Source: Kutzneria viridogrisea (GTDB taxonomy: Bacteria; Actinomycetota; Actinomycetes; Mycobacteriales; Pseudonocardiaceae). Taken from it: a DNA stretch of 64,000 nt. Below the pieces are notes generated by a model that was given only the letters and a program-made list of their open reading frames with translations, was not told the DNA's origin and ran no database searches. The stretch's first letter is position 1; each line of letters starts with the position of its first letter. A program made the translations under genes and the position numbers. Shown here piece by piece: positions 26,844-34,118 of the stretch. Where the stretch lies: assembly GCA_014138725.1 (NCBI GenBank), contig JACJID010000004.1, positions 434,001-498,000 on the forward strand, written 5' to 3'.

Positions 26844-26879
26844 GTTCCGCGATGTGCAACGAGTTGTGCTACACGCAAC
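26844..26879. promoter_or_regulatory. IclR-type operator site A (dimethylglycine dehydrogenase promoter)
   Basis: Two 17-bp elements, GTTCCGCGATGTGCAAC (26844-26860) and GTTGTGCTACACGCAAC (26863-26879), are separated by 2 bp. The 36-bp layout matches sites B, C and D. The site lies 20 bp upstream of the gene start. Confidence 0.7.
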
Positions 26880-26905
26880 AGAGTCCCGGTCGGTTCAGAC
26901 CGGTG

Positions 26906-28411
26906 TCAAGAGCCATCAGCGGCATGCTCGGCGAGCACGCCTGTCTTGTGCCGCAACACGAACCAGTAGTAGGCGAAGCCACCGAGACCCACCACACCGA
27001 CCACCAGGAAGGCACCCCACTGGAGGTACCAGTGGTAGGGCGGCGTGGGGTTGTAGACCTCCGACCTGGGCCACGCGAGGTTGAGCGCCATGCCCGCACC
27101 CCACAGCACGCCCAGGATGTTGACCGGCAACCCGAAGCGCCCCAGGGAGAACCCGCCGCTGGGCGCGCCCTCCCCCGGCCACCGGCCCCGCAGCCGGGCG
27201 ATGAGCATGGGCACGGTCACCAGCAGGTACGCCACGTAGATCAGGATCACGCCGATGCTGGTCACCATCTGGAAGATCTGCGGCTGGCCGATGTTGACCA
27301 CCAGCAGCAGCACCGCGATGAGGCCGACCACCACGGCGGGCACCACCGGGGTCTTCTGCTTGCCGTGCACCTTCGCCAGCAGCGAGCCCGCGGGCAGGTT
27401 GTTGTCCCGGGCCATCGCGAACATCATGCGGATCGCCGCGGTGTGCACCGCGAGGATGCACACGGTCACCGCGATCGCCACGGCCACCAGGAAAATCTTG
27501 CCCACCACGGGTCCCAGCACGTCCAGCACCACGTACTGCAGGCCGACCGAACTCAGCTCCGGGGCGTTGATGTTGCGCACGGACATCAGCGCGAACAGCA
27601 GGATCAGCCCACCGAGCACGAAGGAGGCGACCAGTGCGCGCAGGATCGCCTTGGGCGCGTTGCGCCGGGGATCCACGGTCTCCTCACCGAGCGAACTGGC
27701 CGTGTCGAAGCCGTACATGACGTAGGCCGAGGCCAGCGAGCCGACCAGGAACGCCCCGAAGTAGCCCAGGTCGTGCCCGCTGCCCTTGCCCGCGGTGTCC
27801 AGGACCACGCTGGGGCCCCGCACCGCGCTGACCGCGAGCAGCACGACCAGCAGCACGGCGGCGACCAGTTCGATGAACACGCCCGCACTGTTGATGCGCG
27901 CCATCAGCTTGGTGCTCCACGCGTTGACCAGCGTGCTGAACAGGATCAGCACGCTGCCCAGGATCACGGCGTTCACCGGGGCGTCGTACTCCCCGGTGCC
28001 ATCACCGACGAACTGGAACACCGAGGAGATCTGCGGCAGGGTGATCTGGTACGCCAGGGCCACCGAGCCGACGGTGACGATCGAGGCGACCAGCATCATC
28101 CAGCCCGCTAGCCAGGCCACGTGTGGATTGCCCAGCCGCTTGGACCAGTTGTAGATCGAACCTGCGACCGGGTAGCGCGCGGACAGTTCGGCGAAGCTCA
28201 GTGCGACCATCAGCTGGCCGACGAACACCATCGGCCAGCTCCACCAGTTGGCCGGTCCGCCCATGCCGAAGCCGAAGTAGAACATCTGGAAGGTGCCGGT
28301 GAGGATGGAGATGTAGCTGATGCCCGCGGCGAAGGTGTGGAAGGTGCCGAGCGTGCGCTCGAACTCCTGCTTGTAGCCCAGTTCCCTTAAGCCGTGCCCG
28401 TCTTCACTCAT
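26906..28411 (-). CDS. APC superfamily permease of the choline cluster
   Basis: This 501-residue transporter has twelve predicted membrane helices and the APC hallmark near the N-terminus ([21 protein letters not shown]). It resembles amino acid/GABA/choline permeases, including those with the consensus [24 protein letters not shown] (about residues 235-260). As the third gene of the betB-betA unit, its probable substrate is choline or betaine. The ATG overlaps the betA stop by four bases (ATGA), so it is coupled to betA. No BCCT or ABC betaine transporter lies in the window. Confidence 0.88.
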
Positions 28412-30063
28412 GACCGCTCCTGCGCGCCGTGTCGGTAGAACGGAACCTGCTGCGCGGGCAGCGGGGTGCGTCCCAGGATCAGGTCGGCCGCCTTCTCGGC
28501 CATCATCATCACCGGGGCGTAGATGTTGCCGTTGGTGACGTAACGCATCGCCGAGGCGTCCACCACGCGCAGTCCCCGCAGGCCGTGCACCCGCATGTTC
28601 TGCGGGTCCACAACGGACAGTTCGTCCACACCCATGCGGCAGGTGCAGGAGGGGTGCAGTGCGGTCTCGGCGTCCTTGGCGACCCAGTCCAGGATCTGCT
28701 GGTCGGTCCGCACCGAGGGGCCCGGGGAGATCTCGCCCCCGTTGTACGGGTCCATGGCGGGCTGGTCCAGGATGTTCCTGGCCACCCGCACGGCCTCCAC
28801 CCACTCGCGGCGGTCCTGCTCGGTGGACAGGTAGTTGAACCGGATCGCCGGGTGCACCGAGGGGTCCTTGGAGGTGATCTTCACGGTGCCGCGCGCGTCG
28901 GAGTACATCGGGCCGACGTGCACCTGGTAGCCGTGGTCACCGGCGGGCAGCGAGCCGTCGTAACGGATGGCGATCGGCAGGAAGTGGAACATCAGGTTGG
29001 GGTATGCCACGTCCTCGTTGCTGCGCACGAAGCCGCCGCCCTCGAAGTGGTTCGTGGCACCGGGTCCCTTGCGGAACAACCACTGCAAACCAACCAACGG
29101 CCGGTTGTACCACTTCAGCCAGGGCGCCATGGACACCGGCTGGGTGCAGGCGTACTGGATGTAGACCTCCAGGTGGTCCTGGAGGTTCTGGCCGACACCG
29201 GGCAGGTCGTGCACCACGTCCACGCCCAGCGCGGACAGTTCCGCCGCGTTGCCCACCCCGGACAGCTGCAACAGCTGCGGGGTGTTGATCGCGCCACCGC
29301 ACAGCACGACCTCGCCCGCGCGCACCGTACGCGTCGTGCCACCGCTGCGGTACTCGACGCCGACGGCCTGCTTGCCCTCGAAGAGGATTCGCGTCACGAA
29401 GGCACGACATCGCACCGTGAGGTTGGGCCGCTTGCGCACCGGGTGCAGGTAGGCGCGGGCAGCGCTGAGCCTGCGTCCACGGTGGACGTTGCGGTCGAAG
29501 GGGGCGAAGCCCTCCTGTTGGTAGCCGTTGACGTCCTTGGTCAGCGGGTAGCCCGCCTGTTCGGTGGCCGCGAAGAAGGCCTTGAACAGTGGCCCGTCAG
29601 CCGGGCCCCGCTCCAGCACCAGCGGGCCGTCACCGCCGCGGTACTCGTCGGCACCGGCCAGGCAGTTCTCCATCTTCTTGAAGTACGGCAGGCAGTGTGC
29701 GTAGTCCCAAGTGGACATTCCATCGTCGGCGGCCCAGCGCTGGTAGTCCATCGGGTTGCCGCGCTGGAAGATCATCCCGTTGATGCTGCTGGACCCGCCG
29801 AGCAGCTTGCCGCGCGCGTGGTAGACCCTGCGGCCGCGCAGCTCCGGTTCCGGCTCGGACTCGTACTTCCAGTCGTAGAAGCGGTTGCCGATGGGGATGG
29901 TCAGCGCCGCGGGCATGTGCACGAACACGTCCCACGGGTAGTCCGAGCGGCCCGCCTCCAGCACCAGCACCCGGTTGCCGGGATCGGCCGAGAGCCGGTT
30001 GGCCAGCGCGCTGCCCGCGGACCCGCCACCGACGATGACGAAGTCGTACTGCTCCTGCGTCAC
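28408..30063 (-). CDS. betA: Choline dehydrogenase (GMC oxidoreductase)
   Basis: This 551-residue flavoprotein oxidises choline to betaine aldehyde. The FAD motif [17 protein letters not shown] is at about 7-23, the GMC signature [18 protein letters not shown] near 85, and the catalytic His in [10 protein letters not shown] (about 465), with the second active-site residue in [10 protein letters not shown]. The GTG at 30063 is preceded by GGAGG and lies 11 bp after betB. It is the second gene of betB-betA-permease. Other GMC alcohol dehydrogenases are possible by sequence, but context makes BetA the best call. Confidence 0.92.
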
Positions 30064-30074
30064 GACGTCCTCCT

Positions 30075-33159: not shown

Positions 33160-33218
33160 AGAGTGGACACCGGCCGCGCCCGCCGTCAAGAGGGCAGCGA
33201 CTCAACTAGAGTCTGCTC

Positions 33219-34010
33219 ATGGTTAGCAGCGGTGACGCTCGTGCCGTCAATGGTCCGGCCGCACTCGTGCAATCCGTCGATCGGGCGGTGTCGGTGCTGG
33301 AACTGCTGGCCCAGCACGGCGAACTCGGCATCACCGAGCTGGCCGCCGAACTGGGTGTGCACAAGTCCACCGCCTTCCGCCTGGTCGCCGTCCTGGACGG
33401 CCGGGGCCTGGTCGAACAGACCACCGACCGGGGCAAGTACCGCCTCGGCTTCGGCATCGTGCGACTCGCCGGGGCGACAACCGCCCAGATGGACCTGTCC
33501 CGGGAGAGCCGCCCGGTGTGCGAGCGGCTGGCCGCGGCCGTCGGCGAGACGGTGAACGTGGCCATCCTCGACGGCGGGTTCGTGATCAACGTCAGCCAGA
33601 GCCGGGGCACCGCCGCGGTGGCCAGCCAGAACTGGATCGGGCAGCGCACCCCGTTGCACGCCACCTCCAGCGGCAAGGTGCTGCTGGCCTACCAGCCGCG
33701 CGAGGTGCGCGAGAACCTGCTCGCCCAGCCGCTGGCCGCCTACACCGACCTCACCATCACCGACCCGGCCCAGTTGCGGGTGGCGCTCAAGGACATCCAG
33801 CGGTCCGGCTGGGGCTACACCTCCGGCGAACTGGAGGTCGGGCTCAACGCGGTCGCGGCCCCGGTCCGCAGCGCGGACGGCGAGGTGGTCGCCGCGCTGA
33901 GCGTGTCCGGCCCGGCCTACCGGCTGGTGGACGACCGGTTCGCCGAGGTCGCCGCGGCCGCCGTGCGGGGCGCCGCGGAGGTCAGCGCCCGCCTGGGCTT
34001 CACCGGCTGA
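33219..34010 (+). CDS. IclR family regulator of choline/betaine catabolism
   Basis: This 263-residue regulator has an IclR winged helix at about 17-75 (QSVDRAVSVLELLAQHGELG then KSTAFRLVAVLDGRGLVEQ) and the C-terminal ligand-binding domain with TPLHATSSGKVLLAYQP. It lies in the middle of the choline-to-glycine cluster, divergent from the Rieske ferredoxin. Four promoters of the cluster share one operator layout, and this is the only regulator in it, so it is the likely local controller. The effector is probably a pathway compound such as glycine betaine, dimethylglycine or choline. Its 3' end touches the repeat array of locus 2. Confidence 0.92.
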   Translation: MVSSGDARAVNGPAALVQSVDRAVSVLELLAQHGELGITELAAELGVHKSTAFRLVAVLDGRGLVEQTTDRGKYRLGFGIVRLAGATTAQMDLSRESRPVCERLAAAVGETVNVAILDGGFVINVSQSRGTAAVASQNWIGQRTPLHATSSGKVLLAYQPREVRENLLAQPLAAYTDLTITDPAQLRVALKDIQRSGWGYTSGELEVGLNAVAAPVRSADGEVVAALSVSGPAYRLVDDRFAEVAAAAVRGAAEVSARLGFTG

Positions 34011-34062
34011 GCGGGACTCGGCCCCGGCTGAGCGGGACTCGACCGCCGGAGAGCGGGACTCG
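34011..34062. repeat. 21-bp-period intergenic repeat, locus 2 (3 units)
   Basis: GCGGGACTCG begins at 34011, 34032 and 34053, an exact 21-bp period, directly after the IclR stop codon. The flanks (CCGGCTGA or CCGGAGA before each unit) are also conserved. Confidence 0.8.
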
Positions 34063-34082
34063 CGGGGCTCAGCCGGTTGGGT

Positions 34083-34118
34083 GTTGTGCAGTGCGCAACA
34101 CGGCGCTTAATCTGCAAC
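34083..34118. promoter_or_regulatory. IclR-type operator site D (sox promoter)
   Basis: GTTGTGCAGTGCGCAAC (34083-34099), 2 bp, then GGCGCTTAATCTGCAAC (34102-34118). The same 17-2-17 layout as sites A-C, ending 31 bp before soxB. Confidence 0.7.

Follow-up and report, generated by a model that had tools for sequence, protein, structure and literature searches.

Tandem palindromes with centres 18–22 nt apart have been described for 94 of 181 orthologous groups of IclR-family regulators (Suvorova and Gelfand 2021, PMC8222616), and the same study defines a 17-bp GTT-11-AAC subgroup with the consensus GTTYCRYW3RYGRAAC. Because tandem IclR palindromes are published there, the tandem architecture itself is already known. 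Here we describe a regulon of this type in a 64,000-nucleotide stretch of the Kutzneria viridogrisea genome (contig JACJID010000004.1, positions 434,001 to 498,000; hereafter the window), where predicted double operators precede all four transcription units of a choline-to-glycine gene cluster that also contains one IclR-family regulator gene. The regulon is real and well supported, its architecture is of a known type, and it is new as far as the literature was searched.

The sites share with the published GTT-11-AAC tandem operators the 17-bp GTT-N11-AAC palindrome and the short distance between centres, 19 bp here and 18–22 nt there; the published sites, for which tetramer binding is predicted, likewise have their centres mostly 20–80 nt before the gene start (PMC8222616). 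They depart from the published consensus in that positions 4 and 14 are G and C and the inner arms are weak, the sequence being roughly GTTGCGYAWWRCGCAAC. A term search of the main text of PMC8222616 found neither GTTGC nor choline, betaine or sarcosine; the supplementary predictions may include this regulon. TtgV of Pseudomonas putida (PDB 2XRN/2XRO), an IclR-family protein with a DNA-bound structure, belongs to the same family as the cluster regulator by sequence (3e-12), and its binding as a tetramer is cited in PMC8222616; unlike the cluster regulator, TtgV controls efflux pumps and has other recognition residues (PMC8222616).

At the level of titles and abstracts, none of the literature matches listed deals with IclR control of the catabolism of betaine, dimethylglycine or sarcosine in actinomycetes, nor did any of them present a regulator of actinomycete betaine breakdown. 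In Pseudomonas, the catabolism of betaine to glycine is controlled by GbdR, an AraC-type activator responsive to betaine and dimethylglycine, from a family unrelated to IclR. The sox locus of Bacillus thuringiensis likewise serves sarcosine use, but it depends on SoxR and Sigma54, and the available part of its description mentions no IclR protein (PMC4941409).

Four predicted double operators with fixed spacing

The initial annotation reported four 36-bp elements of 17-2-17 layout, and all four were recovered where it had placed them. We scored double operators by the number of matches at the 20 arm positions of GTTGC-N7-GCAAC-N2-GTTGC-N7-GCAAC. The predicted operator of the dimethylglycine dehydrogenase (DMGDH) unit (26844..26879, minus strand) scores 18/20 and is centred 37.5 bp upstream of the DMGDH start. 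That of the betB-betA-permease unit (31566..31601, minus strand) scores 17/20, with one degenerate inner arm, and is centred 33.5 bp upstream of the betB start. The predicted ferredoxin/reductase operator (33124..33159, minus strand; 18/20) does lie in front of the ferredoxin gene, its centre 28.5 bp away, but the intergenic region is shared with the divergent iclR gene, which starts 77.5 bp from the same centre. The predicted soxB-soxD-soxA-soxG operator (34083..34118, plus strand; 17/20) is centred 49.5 bp upstream of the annotated soxB start; one of its inner arms is degenerate yet kept, reading GCGCTTAATCTGCAAC in 6/6 species. Domain and family searches agree with the initial naming of the downstream genes as DMGDH, betB, the Rieske ferredoxin and soxB. 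The accompanying statement that every transcription unit carries the site is correct for this genome and incorrect for DMGDH in the five congeners examined.

Matches of at least 17/20 are expected by chance 0.0053 times per 64 kb, with a maximum of one per simulation (1,500 Markov simulations of 64 kb). The window holds five, namely the four operators and one intragenic match at 51011-51046. Over the whole genome of 10.25 Mb, the pattern GTTGY-N7-GCAAC-N14-GCAAC with at most one mismatch occurs at 4 places, which are exactly the four operators. The four-arm pattern with at most two mismatches also occurs at 4 places, three of them in this cluster; it misses the betB site because of the degenerate inner arm, and its remaining place (C4:297216) is inside an open frame of 1,832 aa. 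Single 17-bp units with one mismatch number 15 in the window, against 2.93 expected by chance.

Matches within coding sequence were considered separately. The one at 51011-51046 (17/20) lies within a gene that we take to encode an alpha/beta-hydrolase-like protein and is probably due to chance; the match at 26436 (15/20, inside DMGDH) was treated in the same way. A match at 31282-31317 (16/20, inside betB and about 285 bp from the betB operator) was examined as a possible auxiliary intragenic operator and rejected as chance, since the betB genes of five congeners (L053-L057) hold no counterpart scoring at least 15.

The distance between the units was analysed with no spacing assumed. Among pairs in which one unit matches 9/10 and the other at least 8/10, 26 are 19 bp apart and no other spacing up to 120 bp accounts for more than 3; with 8/10 for both units, the numbers are 31 at 19 bp against at most 5 at other distances. 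The unit centres are 19 bp apart at 4/4 window sites, within the 18–22 nt range of tandem operators. As 19 bp corresponds to about 1.8 turns, the initial proposal that the two units lie on the same face of the helix is approximate. In loci L078, L084 and L086, matches overlap at a distance of 19 bp and so form triple arrays, with three consecutive units. Among 58 distinct sites, the 17-bp GTT-N11-AAC frame has the majority base at every frame position. The outer arms are better conserved (about 1.5–2 bits per base) than the inner arms (about 0.3–1.1 bits), and the AAC bases of the distal unit are present in 35, 31 and 39 of the 58 sites. At positions 4 and 14, the published consensus has Y and R, and the distal unit has G (54/58) and C (46/58), respectively.

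Conservation of the sites and their association with the IclR gene

Matches to the cluster IclR protein at 1e-80 are present in 109/200 genomes of the family, and from these, 38 genomes of various genera supplied 40 stretches for analysis. Eighteen further loci came from genome contigs: the five with at least 55% identity were used and the 13 distant ones (27–33%) were left out. Stretches L036 and L038, which seem to come from the same genomes as L069 and L085, were dropped from the 89-site count and from later analyses. The initial annotation had named absence of the motif from orthologous clusters as the outcome that would speak against it; this check was run, and the motif is present. Within the family, sites recur upstream of the orthologues of the Rieske ferredoxin (Fdx), ferredoxin reductase (FdR), betB, soxB and DMGDH genes; in two Streptomyces they are found upstream of DMGDH and Fdx. 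Over 45 IclR-orthologue loci and the cluster part of the window, matches scoring at least 15 number about 2 per 19 kb; Markov-simulated sequence of that length gives about 0.12. Counting the first 45 kb of the window, 69 of the 89 sites scoring at least 15 have the orthologue of a cluster gene (IclR counted among these) no more than 450 bp downstream.

Congeners were compared over five stretches (L053-L057); a sixth IclR-bearing congener, G057 (L059), has a different gene order and was left out. The betB, ferredoxin-IclR and soxB operators are present in 5/5 aligned congeners, and column agreement in the soxB operator is 0.96, against 0.57 and 0.61 in its flanks (six species). At the class level, 40/296 genomes matched IclR, the window's own included, and 29 new loci were analysed: 19 have a site scoring at least 15 near the IclR orthologue.

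The regulator (33219..34010, plus strand) belongs to the IclR family by both of its Pfam domains, HTH_IclR (55.2 bits, cut-off 22) and IclR_C (146.9 bits, cut-off 24). Its best NCBIfam match, the BhcR equivalog, scores 184.1 bits, below the cut-off of 350. The genome carries 16 IclR_C genes, and only the cluster IclR gene adjoins the sites.

Co-occurrence was counted in 199 genomes of the family, the window genome being excluded, with at most 2 mismatches for the motif, 1e-65 or better for IclR and 1e-190 for DMGDH. The motif is present in 104/144 genomes with IclR and in 2/55 without it; the corresponding numbers for a control pattern read backwards are 10/144 and 6/55. Among genomes without DMGDH, the motif is found in 16/22 with IclR and in 2/53 without IclR, and among IclR-positive genomes DMGDH has no effect (88/122 with DMGDH, 16/22 without). 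The motif goes with the IclR gene rather than with DMGDH, a gene of the pathway. Within genera g8 and g24, nine genomes each have both IclR and the motif and one has neither; in g21, one genome has both, eight have neither and one has the motif alone. At loci L123 and L124, IclR has a site scoring 18/20 next to it, and no match to another protein of the cluster was found within 1.5 kb.

The VHKST of the recognition helix (VHKSTAFRL) is kept in 108/113 aligned IclR sequences from relatives, repeats included, and is mostly followed by A[F/S]RL; the five other rows are four low-scoring paralogues and one sequence gapped at this place. IclR paralogues encoded in the same genome differ in the helix (13 alignable rows, one gapped in the helix). 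The closest has VHKSTVLRL (L153; G000:C2:231000-232500), and cross-talk with it is possible. The F or S in VHKSTA[F/S]RL was tried as a predictor of a nearby site scoring at least 15 and gave no separation (33/49 against 14/26).

Promoter layout and proposed mode of action

TTGAC starts 28–31 bp upstream of the operator, in gene direction, in 44/62 sites. This geometry is found at 16/19 DMGDH, 5/5 FdR, 17/17 Fdx and 6/6 betB sites, the three DMGDH exceptions being overlapping triple-array matches whose other match has TTGAC; at IclR and betA sites it is found in 0/7 and 0/2. As controls, there is 1 TTGAC in the 60 bp downstream, the 6 found upstream on the other strand include 0/6 at -28 to -31, and 34/20,000 random positions show the geometry. 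Comparison of sequences between genomes establishes the sites together with their spacing, the link to IclR and the fixed position of TTGAC.

With a spacer of 17–18 bp, the fixed TTGAC would place the -10 element directly before the operator (e.g. TTGACG-N18-CACTCT, then GTTGC), so that the operator would cover the transcription start, as expected of a repressor site. Except at soxB, the operator thus probably begins just after the -10 element and covers the start of transcription. The putative promoters in the window, on the minus strand, are those of DMGDH (-35 TTGACA, 26904..26909; -10 GACTCT, 26880-26885; TTGAC at -30 from the operator), betB (-35 TTGACG, 31625..31630; -10 GATGCT, 31602-31607; TTGAC at -29) and the ferredoxin gene (-35 TTGACG, 33184..33189; -10 CACTCT, 33160-33165; TTGAC at -30). 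The soxB promoter probably lies inside the operator: the candidate core promoter (34084..34113, plus strand) consists of TTGTGC (34084-34089), an 18-bp spacer and TAATCT (34108-34113), and this TAATCT is kept in six species. A promoter inside every operator, with TTG of the distal unit as -35 and the TA-rich proximal unit as -10, was also considered; it was dropped in view of the TTGAC upstream at a fixed distance and kept for soxB only. For iclR, TAGAGT (33207..33212, plus strand; TACAGT in relatives L055-L057) is a candidate -10 element of a leaderless promoter. The operator is upstream of this candidate promoter, 60-95 bp before the iclR start codon, and autoregulation is therefore possible.

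We consider it quite probable that the four elements are operators of the IclR protein encoded among them, most likely repressor sites, each bound by two dimers. Cooperative binding of the two dimers would be in line with the published tandem IclR sites (PMC8222616). Two dimers, forming a tetramer, would most likely occupy the two 17-bp palindromes with centres 19 bp apart, and IclR, once bound, would stand in the way of RNA polymerase at the transcription start of three of the four units. Choline oxidation, betaine demethylation, dimethylglycine oxidation, sarcosine oxidation and the permease would most likely be repressed together, until a pathway compound acting as inducer released IclR.

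Three other explanations can be set against this one. The IclR family includes activators, and the protein could bind the same sites as an activator, or as an activator at some promoters (soxB, iclR) and a repressor at others. The absence of an upstream TTGAC at soxB and the operator position ahead of the iclR start codon would fit such a role, which we nevertheless regard as unlikely: the TTGAC at a fixed distance in 44/62 sites puts the operator downstream of the -35 element, and even with a leaderless transcript, the core promoter would be covered by an operator whose centre lies about 30 bp ahead of the start codon. It is far less probable still that a different regulator, encoded outside the cluster, uses the sites, with iclR a mere passenger of the cluster. 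The cluster genes and IclR do travel together, DMGDH being found without IclR in only 2 genomes; however, the motif follows IclR where DMGDH is absent (16/22 against 2/53), the 18/20 sites at L123 and L124 stand beside IclR without other cluster proteins within 1.5 kb, and the motif class and spacing fit IclR operators (PMC8222616). Chance or compositional similarity among G+C-rich promoters, finally, can account for single 17-bp one-mismatch units, of which 2.93 are expected (15 found), but it hardly comes into question for 36-bp sites scoring at least 17/20, which number five in the window against 0.005 expected per 64 kb, which recur in relatives, whose pattern is specific in the genome and which co-occur with IclR.

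A number of observations weigh against the view that IclR represses the cluster from these operators. The fourth arm base, G, departs from the Y of the published GTT-11-AAC consensus. Of the IclR-positive genomes, 40/144 have no motif match at 2 mismatches, although six of these 40 (G015, G022, G031, G034, G066 and G089) do hold a site of at least 15/20 in the stretch examined; in genus g26, the motif is missing from 4/4 IclR-positive genomes (six other g26 genomes have neither), and the g21 genome noted above carries the motif without IclR. The co-occurrence counts were checked against phylogeny in four genera only. Twenty of the 89 sites scoring at least 15 are not within 450 bp upstream of any cluster-gene orthologue. 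The DMGDH operator is absent from 5/5 congeners checked, in which the permease and DMGDH genes nearly abut, and the more distant sixth congener (G057) has no site assigned to a gene. In 10/29 class-level IclR loci, the best score is below 15. As for the promoter layout, the TTGAC geometry is found at 0/6 soxB sites, is lacking at 19/31 class-level sites (12/31 have it), and is also lacking at the betaine-synthesis and formaldehyde-dehydrogenase sites described below.

Genes of the cluster and a possible wider regulon

The choline-to-glycine cluster extends over 23232-38938 and comprises the four units and the IclR-family gene, which is divergent from the ferredoxin gene. Unit 1 (minus strand) consists of DMGDH followed by a Rieske oxygenase, GbcA-like (glycine betaine demethylation). 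The product of 24395..26824 has DAO, FAO_M and GCV_T domains and, following the initial annotation, is presumed to be dimethylglycine dehydrogenase/oxidase-like. The oxygenase (23232..24362) has Ring_hydroxyl_A and Rieske domains and matches NCBIfam GbcA with 226 bits, below the cut-off of 670; its start may be slightly upstream of that of the open reading frame (ORF). Unit 2 (minus strand) codes for betaine-aldehyde dehydrogenase BetB (30075..31550; TIGR01804, 630.9 bits, below the cut-off of 668.6), choline dehydrogenase BetA (28408..30063; TIGR01810, above cut-off) and an amino-acid permease (26906..28411; AA_permease_2; TIGR03428, 531.9 bits, below the cut-off of 740.45). Unit 3 (minus strand) contains Fdx (32784..33113), recognized by domain search, and FdR (31627..32781; Pfam Pyr_redox_2 and Reductase_C).

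Unit 4 (plus strand) encodes the sarcosine oxidase subunits SoxB (34150..35367; TIGR01373, above cut-off), SoxA (35629..38343, ORF as listed from 35398, start inferred; TIGR01372, 1150.5 bits, below the cut-off of 1164) and SoxG (38333..38938; Pfam SoxG). Between soxB and soxA, the ORF at 35384..35632 contains CPWCG and presumably encodes the SoxD-like small subunit.

The window also contains arrays of 21-bp repeats holding GCGGGACTC or its complement, at 23199-23257, 34003-34062 and 52494-52596, the first of which sits at the end of the oxygenase gene and the second at the end of the IclR gene. In the genome, 387 copies of GAGCGGGACTCG contrast with 4 of the backwards pattern; many of the listed GAGCGGGACTCG copies are spaced by multiples of 21 bp. 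No Rfam family was found at gathering scores in window positions 22000-40000.

In relatives, the operator is also found in front of genes outside the cluster. At twelve loci of genera g20, g24, g41 and g42 (including L097, L099 and L100), it precedes a GcvT-family gene, with TTGAC at -31 in five, at -32/-33 in five and at -45/-46 in two. The GcvT-family gene scanned in L184 is closest to the dimethylsulphoniopropionate demethylase DmdA (331 bits, below the cut-off of 410). The operon there (L184:2389-8954) has the operator in front and consists of DmdA-like (GcvT family), MTHFR-like, formate-tetrahydrofolate ligase and DMGDH-like genes; judged by gene content, it possibly specifies a tetrahydrofolate-dependent demethylation route for betaine. 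In two genomes of genus g16, the operator precedes the gene of S-(hydroxymethyl)mycothiol dehydrogenase, a formaldehyde dehydrogenase (L185:2016-3110, site at 3197; 680 bits, cut-off 513; L117 has the same protein start).

In four genomes (g15, g20, g24 and g44), the operator lies about 600 bp upstream of an N-methyltransferase gene. In L186, this gene codes for a glycine/sarcosine N-methyltransferase (486 bits, cut-off 350) fused to a sarcosine/dimethylglycine N-methyltransferase (432 bits, below the cut-off of 550) and is followed by metK. In the g44 genome, G044, the only place of the pattern is before this betaine-synthesis gene, and the 18.8 kb around its IclR orthologue (L089) contains no site scoring at least 15. 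A second IclR-family gene is present near the N-methyltransferase site in L187 and, by sequence alone, in L189; either IclR protein may therefore act there. Between operator and N-methyltransferase gene, L186, L187, L189 and L190 have a leader of about 600 bases with conserved islands, possibly an RNA element or a long regulatory region; the four loci gave no Rfam match at E ≤0.1.

These additional sites suggest, tentatively, a broader role, which we regard as possible rather than likely: one IclR repressor with tandem or triple operators of 19-bp period could be the betaine master switch of many actinomycetes, governing in some genera one-carbon disposal and de novo betaine synthesis as well. 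One-carbon units would be handled by the DmdA-like, MTHFR-like, formate-tetrahydrofolate ligase and mycothiol formaldehyde dehydrogenase proteins, and synthesis by the N-methyltransferase with metK.

This work provides one gene, an operator specific within its genome and a promoter layout that recurs, together with about 100 genomes for testing. Betaine is both a food and an osmoprotectant, and knowledge of what switches its degradation is relevant to salt tolerance as well as to the flow of one-carbon units and formaldehyde. As some genera have the site upstream of betaine-synthesis genes, a switch between synthesis and breakdown can be tested directly; if the broader role is true, the same protein would set both the making and the burning of the osmolyte.

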